From: an uncultured Synechococcaceae cyanobacterium
GTDB lineage: Bacteria; Cyanobacteriota; Cyanobacteriia; PCC-6307; Cyanobiaceae
NCBI GenBank assembly: GCA_902634405.1
Contig: CACPJY010000001.1
Span: 1 to 64,000, forward strand
Reading direction: 5' to 3'
Length of the DNA stretch: 64,000 nucleotides
The notes under the pieces: generated by a model
What the model was told of the DNA's origin: nothing
The model's database searches: none
Seen by the model: the letters and a program-made list of their open reading frames with translations, nothing else
In this document: piece after piece, positions 40,090 to 46,376 of the stretch
How positions within the stretch are numbered: position 1 is the stretch's first letter
How the letters are laid out: each line of letters opens with the position of its first letter
Made by a program: the position numbers and the translations under genes

Positions 40090-41328
40090 TTAATGATTAG
40101 TTAGCAAATTTTTAGGATTAAGACCCTTAATAAAAGACGTCCTAAATCTTTTAGGCTTGAAATCGGAAGAACTAGCCAAGTCTTTATTCTGTAATGGATT
40201 ATTGGAATCATCAAAGTTTTCCTCAGAAGTTGATTCTTCTGATTTCTTACTTTTATTGCCCAAGAGCTTTTCCTGCATTTGTGAATAACTATTGATCATA
40301 TCAAAATCCTCTTGAAATTCTTTTATATCTTCAGAAGAAACATCTTCTTCTCCTGAAAAATCTGCTTCAATTAAAGTTTCACTAAACTCATCGTTGTTAA
40401 TTTCATCAAACAATTCCCTCTCTACAGTGTATCTAGATAAGAGCTTTTCGCTTATGTTTGAATTCATCCAAGGGGGTTGTTCTTCGTTGCTTTCAAGATT
40501 AATGATTTTTAACTGCTTATTGAAAAAAGGGTTTATAGATTCCCCAGACGAATCTATAACTTCAAATTGAATAATATTCTGTCCAGGTAATAATCCATCA
40601 ATCCAAATCGCTTCAGGGTGATCCATTAAAAAACTATCATCATTTATAGAAATACGCATTCTCCACTGATCATCTCCTTCTGAGATGTTCTGCAATGGAG
40701 AATTCCATAACAACCAATCCAACAATAAAGGCTCGGACTGATTTAGATCTGAAGGATTAGCAATGGTCATCCAAGGTTGTCCCTCTTCTGGCTGGGTCCC
40801 CTTGAGTTTCTTGATCGAGTGGAGTCTCCATTGCAAACTTGCTCCTGGATCCTTAATAGCTTCACCCCAAGGTAAAGCTGCATATGCAGCAAATCTATGA
40901 CTCCCTGGAGAAAGGGGTTTCATTGGAATATGCAACTTTTCCCCTGAAAAAGCACTTATCCGGATTGGAAGCCTGTCATCAACTTGAACAACAACATGAG
41001 GGCCTAAACCAAGTTGAGGATCATTAACGAGAGGCCAATCTTCTAAATCAATCACCAACTCCCATGGATTATTGCTCAAAATAGATTCATTTGCTGGAGA
41101 AACCAACTTGAGCCTGGGTTGATGGTTTGAAAGAGAGTCAAAAATTTTCTGCGCTGCTATGGGGGGAGCAACCTCGCTAATGCTTCCTGATGGTTCTGAA
41201 GGACCTAATAAAGAGTTGAAAGGAAGGTCTACAAATTCTACGTCCGATTCCAAGGCCCATGCTCCGCCAGAATCAAAGGTAAAAAAACAACTAAAGAAAA
41301 AAAATATTAAAAGTAAAAATGTTCTCAT
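40090..41328 (-). CDS. Predicted secreted acidic protein, function unknown
   Basis: From ATG 41328 the protein is 412 residues and opens with a clear signal peptide (MRTFLLLIFFFFSCFFTF, cleavage likely after GGAWA); the frame continues upstream to 41439 but that extension would bury the signal. Residues about 70-290 contain beta-rich, Ig-like patterns (LVSPANESILSNNPWELVIDLEDWP; LPGQNIIQFEVIDSSGES). The C-terminal 130 residues are Ser/Glu/Asp-rich and disordered. I do not recognise a family. It lies 17 bases upstream of cbiG-cobJ on the same strand and divergent from psaA. An envelope or lumenal location is inferred from the signal peptide. Confidence 0.7.
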   Translation of the reverse strand: MRTFLLLIFFFFSCFFTFDSGGAWALESDVEFVDLPFNSLLGPSEPSGSISEVAPPIAAQKIFDSLSNHQPRLKLVSPANESILSNNPWELVIDLEDWPLVNDPQLGLGPHVVVQVDDRLPIRISAFSGEKLHIPMKPLSPGSHRFAAYAALPWGEAIKDPGASLQWRLHSIKKLKGTQPEEGQPWMTIANPSDLNQSEPLLLDWLLWNSPLQNISEGDDQWRMRISINDDSFLMDHPEAIWIDGLLPGQNIIQFEVIDSSGESINPFFNKQLKIINLESNEEQPPWMNSNISEKLLSRYTVERELFDEINNDEFSETLIEADFSGEEDVSSEDIKEFQEDFDMINSYSQMQEKLLGNKSKKSEESTSEENFDDSNNPLQNKDLASSSDFKPKRFRTSFIKGLNPKNLLTNH

Positions 41329-41852
41329 GGCACATTTTAGCTTTCTTAATGCACCCAAAAACTCCTGAAAATGATTATTCGGGCCAAATATCACCCCCAG
41401 GGAAGGCATGAGGCAAAAGCTGGCAAGAGGAAATTTCAAGAAAAGGGGGCAAGCAAGAAACCAGTCCAGGAGAAGGAAGTCACCAACTCAGTACAAGTAT
41501 TTTAATGAATCTCAAAGATTTTGAGCTCCTGAAATTGTTAATTCATTTCAAAAGCAACTAATCCCTTTTATATCAATGTCGCAAAAGACTTCATACCCTG
41601 ACGAAGAAGCTTCTGGATAGAACATTTGTTACTTGCGTGAGTAGTGACAGGCTCTCGCACTTATGCTTCGTTGAGCGGTCCCCTTTTAGGGGCCAACTCG
41701 CTGCAGTGCTCTCACAAGGTTTTCCTTAAGTTGTAGCACTGGCGCCCGGATGTCAAATCCCTTCCAGGGACTGCATTCGGGGCCCTGGTAAGTCCTCGAA
41801 CTTACCGATAGGTGGCCCTCCACCTCGATCCCGTACCTCGAGGAACCTCTCG
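41329..41852 (+). promoter_or_regulatory. psaA upstream region with GC-rich, hairpin-dense leader
   Basis: The 524-base gap splits in two. The left part is AT-rich, with CTCAAA/TTTGAG (41511-41525). The right part, 41641-41820, is about 56% G+C by hand count, far above the surroundings, and packed with perfect stems: CCCCT/AGGGG (41680-41692); CAGTGCT 41704-41710 with AGCACTG 41735-41741, holding AAGG/CCTT inside; CCAGGG/CCCTGG (41764-41788) sharing GG with GGTAAG/CTTACC (41787-41806); GGTGG/CCACC (41811-41824); CCTCGA/TCGAGG (41823-41843). The last takes in the GAGG that would serve as ribosome-binding site for the ATG at 41853. Control of psaA is inference. Confidence 0.6.
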
Positions 41853-44102
41853 ATGACCATTAGCCCACCAGAGCGTGGGACGAAGGCTATTTACGACCAG
41901 CCTGTCGACCGGGACCATGCCCCCGCCGACCCTGAAAAGCTAGGTCAACCGGGACTTTGGTCCCGCAGCCTCGCCAAAGGTCCCAAAACCACAACCTGGA
42001 TTTGGAACCTCCACGCTGACGCTCACGATTTTGAAACTCACATCGGTGATGTAGAAGAGACGAGTCGAAAGATTTTTTCGGCCCATTTCGGACATCTTGC
42101 CGTTGTATTTATATGGATGAGTGGTGCCTTCTTCCACGGTGCTCGCTTTTCCAATTATTCCGGCTGGCTAGCCGATCCAACGCACGTGAAACCAGGTGCG
42201 CAGATTGTATGGCCAATAGTTGGACAACAAATTATGAATGGGGATCTCGGTGCCGGTTACAACGGCATGCAGATCACCTCTGGAATTTTCCAAATGTGGA
42301 GGGCCTGGGGTATCACCAGCGAAACAGAACTGATGGCATTAGCCATTGGTGCTCTGGTGATGGCAGCCCTAGTTCTCCACGGCGGGATTTACCACTATCA
42401 CAAAGCCGCTCCAAAGCTTGAGTGGTTCAAAAAAATCGAGTCAATGCTCCAGCACCATCAGATCGGTCTGATCGGTCTGGGTTCAATTGGCTGGGGAGGT
42501 CACCTGATTCATGTGGCTAATCCAACCAATGCAATGCTCGATGCCATTGACGCTGGAACTCCGCTTTCACTTAATGGCCAAACAATTGCATCTGTGGCGG
42601 ATATTCCTCTTCCACATGAGCTCTACAACGCAGATCTGGTAGGTCAGATCTTCCCTGGACTAGCTTCAGGAGTTGGCAATTTCTTCAGCCTAAATTGGTG
42701 GGCCTTCAGCGATTTCCTTACCAACAACGGTGGGGTTAATCCTGTTACAGGAAGCCTTTGGATGACTGACATTGCTCACCACCATTTAGCGTGGGGAGTT
42801 TTTGCCATCTTTGGTGGTCATATGTGGCGTAACACCATGGGTGTTGGTCACAGCATGAAGGAAATTATGGATAACGCTAAGGGCGATCCAATCCTTTTCC
42901 CTGCACCAAAAGGTCACCAAGGAATTTTTGAATTCCTTAGTAATAGTTGGCACGCCCAACTAAGCATCAACCTTGCCTGTGTTGGTTCAGCAAGCATCAT
43001 CATTGCGCATCATATGTATGCGTTACCTCCCTATCCGTACTTATCTAGTGATCACGCCACTGTTTTAGGGCTCTTCACTCACCATATGTGGATAGGTGGC
43101 TTAATGATCTGCGGAGCTGCTGCTCATGGAGGCATTGCAATGGTTAGGGACTACGATCCCGCCCTTCACGTAGATAACGTCCTAGACAGGATTTTAAAAG
43201 CGCGTGATGCCCTCATTAGCCATCTGAACTGGGTATGCATGTTCTTAGGCTTCCATAGTTTTGGCCTTTACATCCATAACGATGTAATGCGTGGACTAGG
43301 ACGTAGCCAGGACATGTTCAGCGATAAGGCAATACAACTTCAGCCATTTTTGGCTCAATGGGTTCAAAACCTTTGGCATGAATCAGTTGGAACTGGTGCT
43401 CTAGTAGGTGCTGGAAACCTTCCAGGTGGTATTAGTGAAGCTTTCGACATTCCATTAGGAACTGCCGATTTAATGATTCACCATGTTCACGCTTTTACCA
43501 TCCACGTAACTGTGCTCATCCTTCTTAAGGGTGTGCTCTATGCAAGAAGCTCTCGCTTAATACCTGATAAGGCTCAGCTTGGCTTCCGTTTCCCCTGCGA
43601 TGGCCCCGGTCGTGGTGGCACCTGTCAGGTTTCTTCTTGGGACCATGTTTTCCTAGGCCTGTTCTGGATGTATAACTCCATATCTGTTGTTATCTTCTAT
43701 TTCTCATGGAAGATGCAAAGCGACGTATGGGGTCTCACTGGAGGCAACTTCGCTGATAGCGGCATTACCATTAATGGTTGGTTGCGCGACTATCTCTGGG
43801 CACAATCCTCTCAAGTTCTTACCGGCTACGGAACACCTTTAAGTGGCTATAGCCTGTTATTCCTTGGAGGTCACTTCATCTGGGCATTTAGCCTGATGTT
43901 CCTGTTCACTGGCCGTGGCTATTGGCAGGAATTGTTTGAGTCAATTATTTGGGCTCATAACAAGCTGAAATTGGCTCCTACCATTCAGCCCCGTGCTCTT
44001 TCCATTACCCAAGGACGTGCAGTTGGTGTCACCCATTTCCTTTTGGGAGGCATTGTCACTACTTGGACTTTCTTCCATGCCCGCCTTCTTGGGCTCGGCT
44101 GA
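41853..44102 (+). CDS. psaA: Photosystem I P700 apoprotein A1
   Basis: Core PSI subunit binding P700, A0, A1 and, with PsaB, the FX cluster. 749 residues, eleven membrane helices. The FX loop [18 protein letters not shown] supplies two of the four cluster cysteines; many His ligands to chlorophyll lie in repeated HHHLA/HH motifs. The start MTISPPERG is canonical. Immediately upstream lies the structured leader, and psaB follows after 21 bases; the two are normally co-transcribed. Confidence 0.99.
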
Positions 44103-44123: not shown

Positions 44124-46376
44124 ATGGCAACGAAATTTCCTTCGTTTAGCCAGGGTCTGGCACAGGACCCTACAACCCGTCGTATTTGGTACGGCATTGC
44201 CACGGCTCACGATTTCGAGAGCCATGACGGCATGACCGAAGAACAGCTTTATCAAAAACTGTTCTCTACTCATTTCGGTCACCTCGCCATCATCGGTCTA
44301 TGGGTTGCTGGAAACCTGTTCCATATCGCCTGGCAGGGCAACTTTGAGGCCTGGGTCGCCGACCCAACTCATGTTCGCCCAATTGCTCACGCAATCTGGG
44401 ATCCCCATTTTGGCCAAGGCATCACAGATGCTTTGACTCAAGCGGGTGCATCTGGCCCAGTAGATATTTGCTATTCCGGTTTGTACCACTGGTGGTACAC
44501 AATTGGTATGCGGACTAATATCGAGCTCTATCAGGGCGCGATTTTTATAAACATAATGGTGTGCTGGCTGCTTTTTGCAGGCTGGCTTCATCTTCAGCCA
44601 AAGTTCAGGCCTTCATTGGCTTGGTTCAAAAACGCTGAGGCACAGTTAAATCACCATATTGGTGTCCTATTTGGCTTCTCTAACATTGCTTGGACAGGTC
44701 ACTTAGTACACGTAGCTATTCCAGAATCACGTGGTCAACACGTTGGATGGGACAACTTCTTAGAAGTACTTCCTCATCCAGATGGCTTAGCTCCTTTCTT
44801 TACAGGAAACTGGGGTGCTTATGCACAAAATCCAGATTCCCTAGATGCTGTTTTCGGAACCTCACAAGGTGCTGGTACAGCAATGCTTACATTCCTTGGT
44901 GGAATGCATCCAGGGAGTGGTTCTCTGTGGCTTACCGATATTGCTCATCACCACCTAGCTCTAGGAGTTGTGATGATCATTGGTGGGCATATGTACCGCA
45001 ATACCTTTGGTATTGGTCATACTCTCAAGGAAATCACTGAAGCCCACAACACCAGTCACCCTAACGACCCTCATAAAGATGGTTATCGCGAAGGTTGGGG
45101 ACATTTTTCAGTAAATCACAATGGGATTTACGAAACAGTTAACAATTCACTCCACTTCCAATTAGGGCTTGCACTGGCTTGTCTTGGAGTTGCTTGCAGT
45201 CTGGTTGCTCACCATATGGGAGCACTTCCTTCCTATGCATATATTGCTCAGGATTACACAACTCAAGCCGCTCTTTACACTCACCACCAGTACATTGCTG
45301 TCTTATTGATGGTAGGGGCTTTCTCTCATGGAGCGATCTTCTTCGTCCGTGACTACGACCCCGAACTTAATAAGAACAATGTTCTTGCAAGGGTTTTAGA
45401 TAGCAAAGAAGCTCTAATCAGTCATCTCAGCTGGGTATGTATGCTTCTTGGCTTCCACACCCTTGGAATTTACGTTCACAATGACGTATGTGTTGCTTTT
45501 GGCACCCCTGAGAAGCAAATACTAATTGAGCCAATTTTTGCTCAATTCACAATGGGTGCCGCAGGCAAGGTGATGTATGGCTTCGATGCATTGTTATCCA
45601 ATGCCAATAGTGCTGCCAGCATGGCCGCAGCCAATATTCCTGGTGACCACTATTGGTTGGACATGATCAATGCACCCGATGCATCTACTAATTTCCTTCC
45701 TATAGGACCTGCGGATTTCTTGGTGCACCATGGCATAGCCCTTGGTATCCATACCACTGCACTAATCCTTATTAAAGGTGCTCTAGATGCTAGAGGGACT
45801 AAGCTAATTCCAGATAAAAAGGACTTTGGCTATTCCTTCCCTTGTGATGGTCCTGGCCGTGGAGGCACTTGCGACAGCTCAGCATGGGATGCCACTTATA
45901 TGGCTCTCTTCTGGGCAGTTAACACAATTGCTTGGGTTCAGTTCTACTGGCATTGGAAGCATTTGGCCATTTGGTCAGGCAATATTGCCCAGTTCAATGA
46001 GTCTGGAACTTATTTAATGGGTTGGTTCAGAGATTATTTGTGGCTTAACAGTTCACAGTTAATCAATGGTTATAACCCATTTGGTGTCAATGCATTATCT
46101 CCATGGGCATTCATGTTCCTATGGGCTCACCTTGTATGGGCTGTAGGCTTCATGTTCCTCATCTCTTGGAGAGGATACTGGCAAGAGTTAATCGAGACCC
46201 TTGTATGGGCTCACCAGCGCACTCCAATTGCCAACCTGGTTGGCTGGCGTGACAAGCCTGTTGCCCTATCGATTGTTCAAGCCCGCTTAGTTGGTGTTTC
46301 TCACTTTGTGATAGGAACAGCAGCCACTTACGCAGCGTTTGTAATCGGATCCACTGCAGGTAAATTCGGGACATAA
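44124..46376 (+). CDS. psaB: Photosystem I P700 apoprotein A2
   Basis: Second half of the PSI heterodimer, 750 residues, eleven helices. Opens [22 protein letters not shown]; the FX loop [18 protein letters not shown] gives the other two cysteines. Paired His ligands are in [10 protein letters not shown] and related sites. It is homologous to PsaA throughout. Its stop is followed about 50 bases later by a strong terminator. No Shine-Dalgarno is seen in the short gap after psaA. Confidence 0.99.

Follow-up and report, generated by a model that had tools for sequence, protein, structure and literature searches.

The sequence directly upstream of psaA in the window (the whole 64,000-nucleotide stretch of cyanobacterial DNA analysed here) is GC-rich and crowded with hairpins, raising the question of whether it acts as an RNA on the expression of psaA and, if so, by which of its stems. 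PsaA and PsaB are the photosystem I core proteins of very abundant photosynthetic bacteria. A sequence-only reading of the segment had proposed that a switch-like leader, or an independent small RNA, controls psaA translation or decay.

The psaA leader and its RNA family

A covariance-model search of the window returned a full-length match (197 bases, model positions 1–197) to the Rfam family RF01752, psaA RNA, with a score of 116.4 bits against a gathering cut-off of 50 and an E-value of 2.2e-26 (Table 1). The match reaches the start codon of psaA (41853), and psaB is the next gene, at 44124, which places the element in the potential 5′ UTR of psaAB. Weinberg et al. 2010 (PMC2864571) described the motif at that location in certain cyanobacteria, with three hairpins and with UNCG loops that are frequent but not universal; UUCG-type loops were absent from the predicted fold of the window copy. 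The same paper rated the motif as certainly RNA and probably cis-regulatory, left ‘riboswitch?’ open, and regulation in the species carrying it was still unstudied at that date; the literature that we searched contained no functional study of psaA RNA later than 2010. We regard the window leader as almost certainly a member of RF01752. The element is thus already known, having been catalogued since 2010, and the sequence-only reading had spotted it correctly.

Table 1. Positions of features at the psaA locus, in window coordinates
Feature	Position	Strand	Basis
Conserved upstream promoter element GAACATTTGTTAC (GAACCTTTGTAACT in marine Synechococcus)	41620..41632	+	predicted −54 to −42; conservation
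psaA RNA, Rfam RF01752	41660..41856	+	covariance-model match, full length
Predicted −10 box TATGCT	41662..41667	+	hexamer conserved across leaders; in Rfam model as unpaired RNA positions
Predicted transcription start A (179-nt 5′ UTR)	41674	+	inferred from conserved A before GCGG
HP-A, 5′ local hairpin GGUCCCC/GGGGCC	41677..41694	+	predicted probability 0.24–0.69; exclusive with Rfam P1 and P2
Rfam P2, GGGGCC (41689–41694) with 41781–41786	41689..41786	+	6 of 7 positions pair in window
P3 hairpin CAGUGCU/AGCACUG	41704..41741	+	covariation
P4 hairpin	41747..41779	+	Rfam alignment and predicted fold
P5 hairpin GGUAAGU/ACUUACC	41787..41806	+	covariation; probability 0.97
H5 hairpin AGGUGG/CCACCU	41810..41825	+	predicted fold; absent from Rfam structure
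Rfam last hairpin CCUCGA/UCGAGG (ribosome-binding-site stem of the sequence-only reading)	41823..41843	+	Rfam alignment
Start hairpin UCGAG/CUCGA	41838..41853	+	pairs part of Shine-Dalgarno and A of AUG; predicted fold
Shine-Dalgarno GAGG	41840..41843	+	sequence, 9 nt 5′ of AUG
psaA CDS, 749 aa	41853..44102	+	ORF; residues 1–200 94% identical to closest Prochlorococcus relative
psaB	44124–46376		ORF, 3′ of psaA

Of 400 genomes from the same cyanobacterial family, 224 had a match to RF01752, as a rule one each. The sampled genomes of relatives and of the class outside that family had none, and genomes of about 1.2–1.9 Mb within the family often had no match. For comparison we used the psaA leaders of about 150 relatives, the subsets including 68 typical homologs and 28 derived (Prochlorococcus-like) lineages. 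The psaA RNA was linked to psaA in the leaders examined. High-light-type (HL) Prochlorococcus leaders (L093–L109, including that of MIT 9201, L097) had wholly lost RF01752 while keeping the upstream promoter element and the −10 box. The z-score of the fold energy of the last 115 nt was −1.07 in the HL leaders, −2.84 in the typical, −4.02 in the derived and −3.77 in the LLI-like ones, HL and LLI-like being group labels drawn from sequence and record names that imply no clade assignment.

The Shine-Dalgarno context of the HL leaders differs as well (GAGGTGCTAGATG). In the LLI-like leaders (L067–L092), a tight AUUCC-NNNN-GGAAU hairpin about 30 nt before the ATG holds the Shine-Dalgarno GGA and replaces the RF01752 arrangement; its tetraloops are variable (TGAA, TAAA, and TTCA or AACA in L074/L086), and a hairpin upstream of it, for instance CCTAGTCTT/AAGACTAGG, varies in a compensating manner. 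The cyanophage P-TIM68 (L179, KM359505.1) has psaA 9 nt after psaC with no RF01752 match, and this psaA, having no host leader, would escape any leader-based control. A scan of viral contigs for psaA found none.

Both the GC content and the fold energy of the segment are unusual. The G+C content of 41641–41820, put at about 56% by hand in the sequence-only reading, was 56.1%, a level that just 0.6% of 180-nt windows reached; the genome, described there as AT-rich, is only mildly so, with a window mean of 42.0% GC. As the GC-rich patch extends to 42085, into psaA, high GC is not a mark of the leader alone. The first codons of psaA (41850–42000) are 60–64% GC, above the leader's own value. The stems named in that reading were all present as typed, but their close packing was less distinctive, 12 perfect stems of at least 5 pairs comparing with 7.9 ± 2.7 in dinucleotide shuffles (p ~0.09); a count of short stems, taken alone, does not reach significance. 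The fold energy of 41641–41852 was −81.1 kcal/mol (z −3.15), with 0 of 200 shuffles as low, and the z-score was −2.97 when folding began at the predicted transcription start; these nearest-neighbour values take no account of proteins, tertiary contacts or pseudoknots.

Predicted promoter and transcription start

The unpaired 5′ end of the Rfam model includes TATGCTT. At this place the homologous leaders have TATGCT (84), TATACT (34), TATAGT (7), TATTAT (7), TATGAT (5) or TAAGCT (4), hexamers that all begin with TA and end in T, in the pattern of a −10 box, and a near-constant A stands 7 nt downstream, directly before GCGG. From these features we infer that the window psaA transcript starts near A41674. 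Almost every relative also has an upstream element (GAACATTTGTTAC or GAACCTTTGTAAC), some 29 nt 5′ of the −10 box; the HL clades without psaA RNA are among them and combine it with TATTAT at a similar spacing. Because the −10-like hexamer and the upstream element are kept in clades that have no such RNA, promoter DNA, and not RNA, is most likely what the first ~14 positions of the RF01752 model represent. The predicted start lies upstream of 41820; a start downstream of about that position had been named in the sequence-only reading as evidence that would count against it, so the prediction speaks in favour of that reading.

Activating RpaB/HLR1 sites are located at −66 to −45, and psaA is listed as a target in model strains (2026 review, PMC13421787). 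In marine Synechococcus, comparison by eye with HLR1 (KTTACAWW-N2-KTTACAWW, about −66 to −45) identified a single half-site on the minus strand, GTTACAAA, with no good second half; in Prochlorococcus the HLR1-like site was degenerate. The window element is a possible half-site of the RpaB/HLR1 type; as it matches HLR1 poorly from its position at −54 to −42, the link to RpaB is a lead only.

A GC-rich, structured segment with its own predicted promoter might also encode an independent small RNA upstream of psaA, the other proposal of the sequence-only reading. However, no terminator-like site was found within 41000–42200, the conserved stretch continues across the start codon, and the element was found only at psaA. 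On these grounds the small RNA is unsupported, and we consider it extremely unlikely.

Hairpins of the leader and the ribosome-binding site

Compensatory changes among relatives, named in the sequence-only reading as a check on its stems, were found in P5 and P3. P5 changed on both sides at 6 of the 6 pairs tested, and the paired fraction was 0.874 in register as compared with 0.28–0.44 when slid; its pairing probability (GGTAAGT/ACTTACC) in the predicted folds of the window was 0.7–0.98. For P3 (CAGTGC/GCACTG), the fraction was 0.860 in register and at most 0.367 when slid, with both-side changes at 3 of 8 pairs. The comparison strongly supports P5 as a real helix and supports P3. At the place of HP-A, several derived lineages (e.g. 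L028, L039, L051, L052 and L059) have longer hairpins of other sequence.

The two stems that the sequence-only reading had opposed to each other, CCAGGG/CCCTGG and GGTAAG/CTTACC, do overlap, since CCCTGG (41783–41788) and GGTAAG (41787–41792) share two bases, but they do not form an either/or switch. The predicted probability of CCAGGG/CCCTGG was 0.00–0.03; lying outside the predicted fold, this stem is ruled out as a switch half, and its conflict with P5 is a product of chance. Attenuation by a leader peptide was likewise rejected: of 68 homologs, no more than 12 have an ATG ORF of at least 8 codons in the leader, and the peptides compared are not alike. The window leader itself has a 13-codon ATG ORF at 41750–41791, apparently unconserved.

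The stem that had been seen to cover the ribosome-binding site, CCUCGA/UCGAGG, exists and is identical to the last hairpin of the Rfam structure. It was invariant in the 68 typical homologs, and intact in 13 and broken in 15 of the 28 derived lineages, the derived-lineage counts being made alignment-free, as the alignment displaces some of these rows by one base around the Shine-Dalgarno. Nevertheless, it is not the favoured fold: its probability from the predicted start was 0.00–0.01 in the window, and it exceeded 0.5 at 37 °C in 0 of the 68 homologs, whose folds at 22 °C were essentially the same. What was predicted at this place are two local hairpins. The core of H5, GGUGG/CCACC (41811–41824), had a probability of 0.96–1.0 in the window when folded from the predicted start, exceeded 0.5 in 64 of 68 typical homologs and was retained in lineages where the long-range helix P1 of the Rfam structure is lost. 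One leader (L024) has GGCG/CGCC where the others have GGUG/CACC, which looks like a compensatory change from U-A to C-G. The start hairpin had a probability of 0.87–0.95 in the window, exceeded 0.5 in 68 of 68 typical homologs and was intact in 26 of the 28 derived lineages. UCGAG/CUCGA is nearly invariant, so covariation is unable to test it, and the CTCG is kept in LLI-like leaders despite loss of the UCGAG, so something other than this pairing may have preserved it. Pairing of the loop CCUCGA (41794–41799) with the Shine-Dalgarno was rejected, with a probability of 0.02–0.03 from the predicted start.

These predictions make it rather probable that PsaA translation is controlled through masking of the ribosome-binding site. 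Masking by a hairpin is also what an RNA thermometer would use, and the 5′ UTR of Chlamydomonas chloroplast psaA, the same gene, has been shown experimentally to be one (PMC10639063). In the window leader, however, positions 41839–41842 were predicted to be at least 97% paired throughout 5 to 55 °C; the central Shine-Dalgarno pairing barely changes with temperature, where a thermometer hairpin would open over the physiological range. A thermometer of this type is accordingly very improbable.

Proposed exclusive states, their possible loss in Prochlorococcus, and known systems

What is established for the leader is the covariance-model match, the covarying hairpins and the position on the start codon. 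The RF01752 match and the compensatory changes support the proposal of a structured cis-regulatory leader, and our preferred reading, which we consider reasonably likely, is that psaA RNA forms a structured leader at the 5′ end of the psaA mRNA and acts in cis, at the level of translation. Transcription would start at A41674, and the leader would fold into HP-A (or P2), P3, P4, P5, H5 and the last hairpin. With the Shine-Dalgarno and the A of the AUG held in this last hairpin, translation of PsaA would be restrained by default.

Across the family, P1 could replace HP-A and H5, freeing CCUCGA to pair with the Shine-Dalgarno. P1 takes GGGG and GCC of the 3′ region, bases that GGUGG/CCACC also takes, and the Rfam ribosome-binding-site hairpin takes CCUC of CCACCUC; owing to these shared bases, the state with P1 and the Rfam hairpin and the state with the local hairpins are mutually exclusive. 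The Shine-Dalgarno would be paired in both, with different partners. Predicted folds did not favour P1, which exceeded 0.5 in 0 of 68 typical homologs and cost a median of 4.9 kcal/mol above the best fold (1.2–3.6 in most marine Synechococcus-type leaders). Nevertheless, when 48 pairings of a 5′-loop column with a column of the 3′ region were compared, the register pair of P1 came out strongest (74% paired versus 50% expected, z 7.7, MI 0.84), and 6 of 13 changes on the leader tree swapped standard pairs via G-U steps, with 0 strict double changes. As this support comes mainly from one variable column pair, and as the shuffles are blind to relatedness, the covariation is good but not final evidence; by it, P1 is probably real in the psaA RNA family. 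Strong covariation at a helix that is not the favoured fold makes two exclusive states plausible. Since P1 requires the part of the leader that is transcribed last, the local hairpins should form first, and the choice between states might be made by a trans-acting factor, ribosome standby or transcription speed. In the window, 7 of 10 P1 positions pair formally, but the core contains C.A, C-gap and U.U, and P1 was predicted to be unformed; with P1 thus damaged, this leader is probably locked in the local-hairpin state.

A switch-like leader is therefore plausible, as the sequence-only reading had suggested, but with other stems. That the RNA is a true two-state switch is, in our estimation, possible but less likely than not. 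The same holds for the fuller form of this idea, in which a photosynthesis-linked signal would choose between P1 with CCUCGA/UCGAGG and HP-A with GGUGG/CCACC and UCGAG/CUCGA, the system having been taken apart in steps in Prochlorococcus: loss of P1 with the local hairpins retained, and loss of everything in high-light clades. A static stabiliser and brake would be a simpler rival: the 5′-proximal and start-site hairpins would shield the highly expressed psaA-psaB mRNA from decay or set ribosome loading, without switching. It agrees with a hairpin that begins about 3 nt from the predicted 5′ end, with the persistence of local hairpins where P1 is lost, and with the cost of P1 in the window, 10.1 kcal/mol above the best fold; on the other hand, an occluded Shine-Dalgarno would be costly for a pure stabiliser, and the P1 register pair covaries across ~130 nt. 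We view the static leader as possible, though not as the likely reading. Mutually exclusive helices adjoining the Shine-Dalgarno would also suit the expression platform of a ligand-binding riboswitch, the category left open in PMC2864571. Yet the letters that are conserved fall within helices or the promoter, with no sign of a conserved unpaired pocket, and the element was found only at psaA; a riboswitch appears very improbable.

For the translational leader, the refined map supplies a predicted start, three helices that compete for the ribosome-binding site, naturally occurring strains that have or lack each of them, and complete loss in high-light Prochlorococcus. What was an open annotation can now be approached with a small set of defined mutants and with probing. 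The exclusive pair proposed here, which differs from that of the sequence-only reading, is testable in this way.

Among known systems, the PhotoRC-I/II and psbNH motifs (Weinberg et al. 2010) are likewise leader motifs of cyanobacterial photosystem mRNAs without a known trigger; they belong to other genes, and the covariance-model search gave no match to them in the window. The Chlamydomonas psaA thermometer shares with the window leader a psaA 5′ UTR hairpin that hides the Shine-Dalgarno. That thermometer consists of one weak hairpin, which has melted by 40 °C (PMC10639063), whereas the window leader is large and predicted to be stable. With RF01752 itself (PMC2864571), the window copy shares the gene, the position, the whole model, the P3 and P5 hairpins and the Rfam ribosome-binding-site stem, and differs in its damaged P1 and the lack of UNCG loops. 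To that model the present analysis adds the predicted local hairpins H5, HP-A and start hairpin, and the probable reassignment of its first ~14 positions to the promoter.
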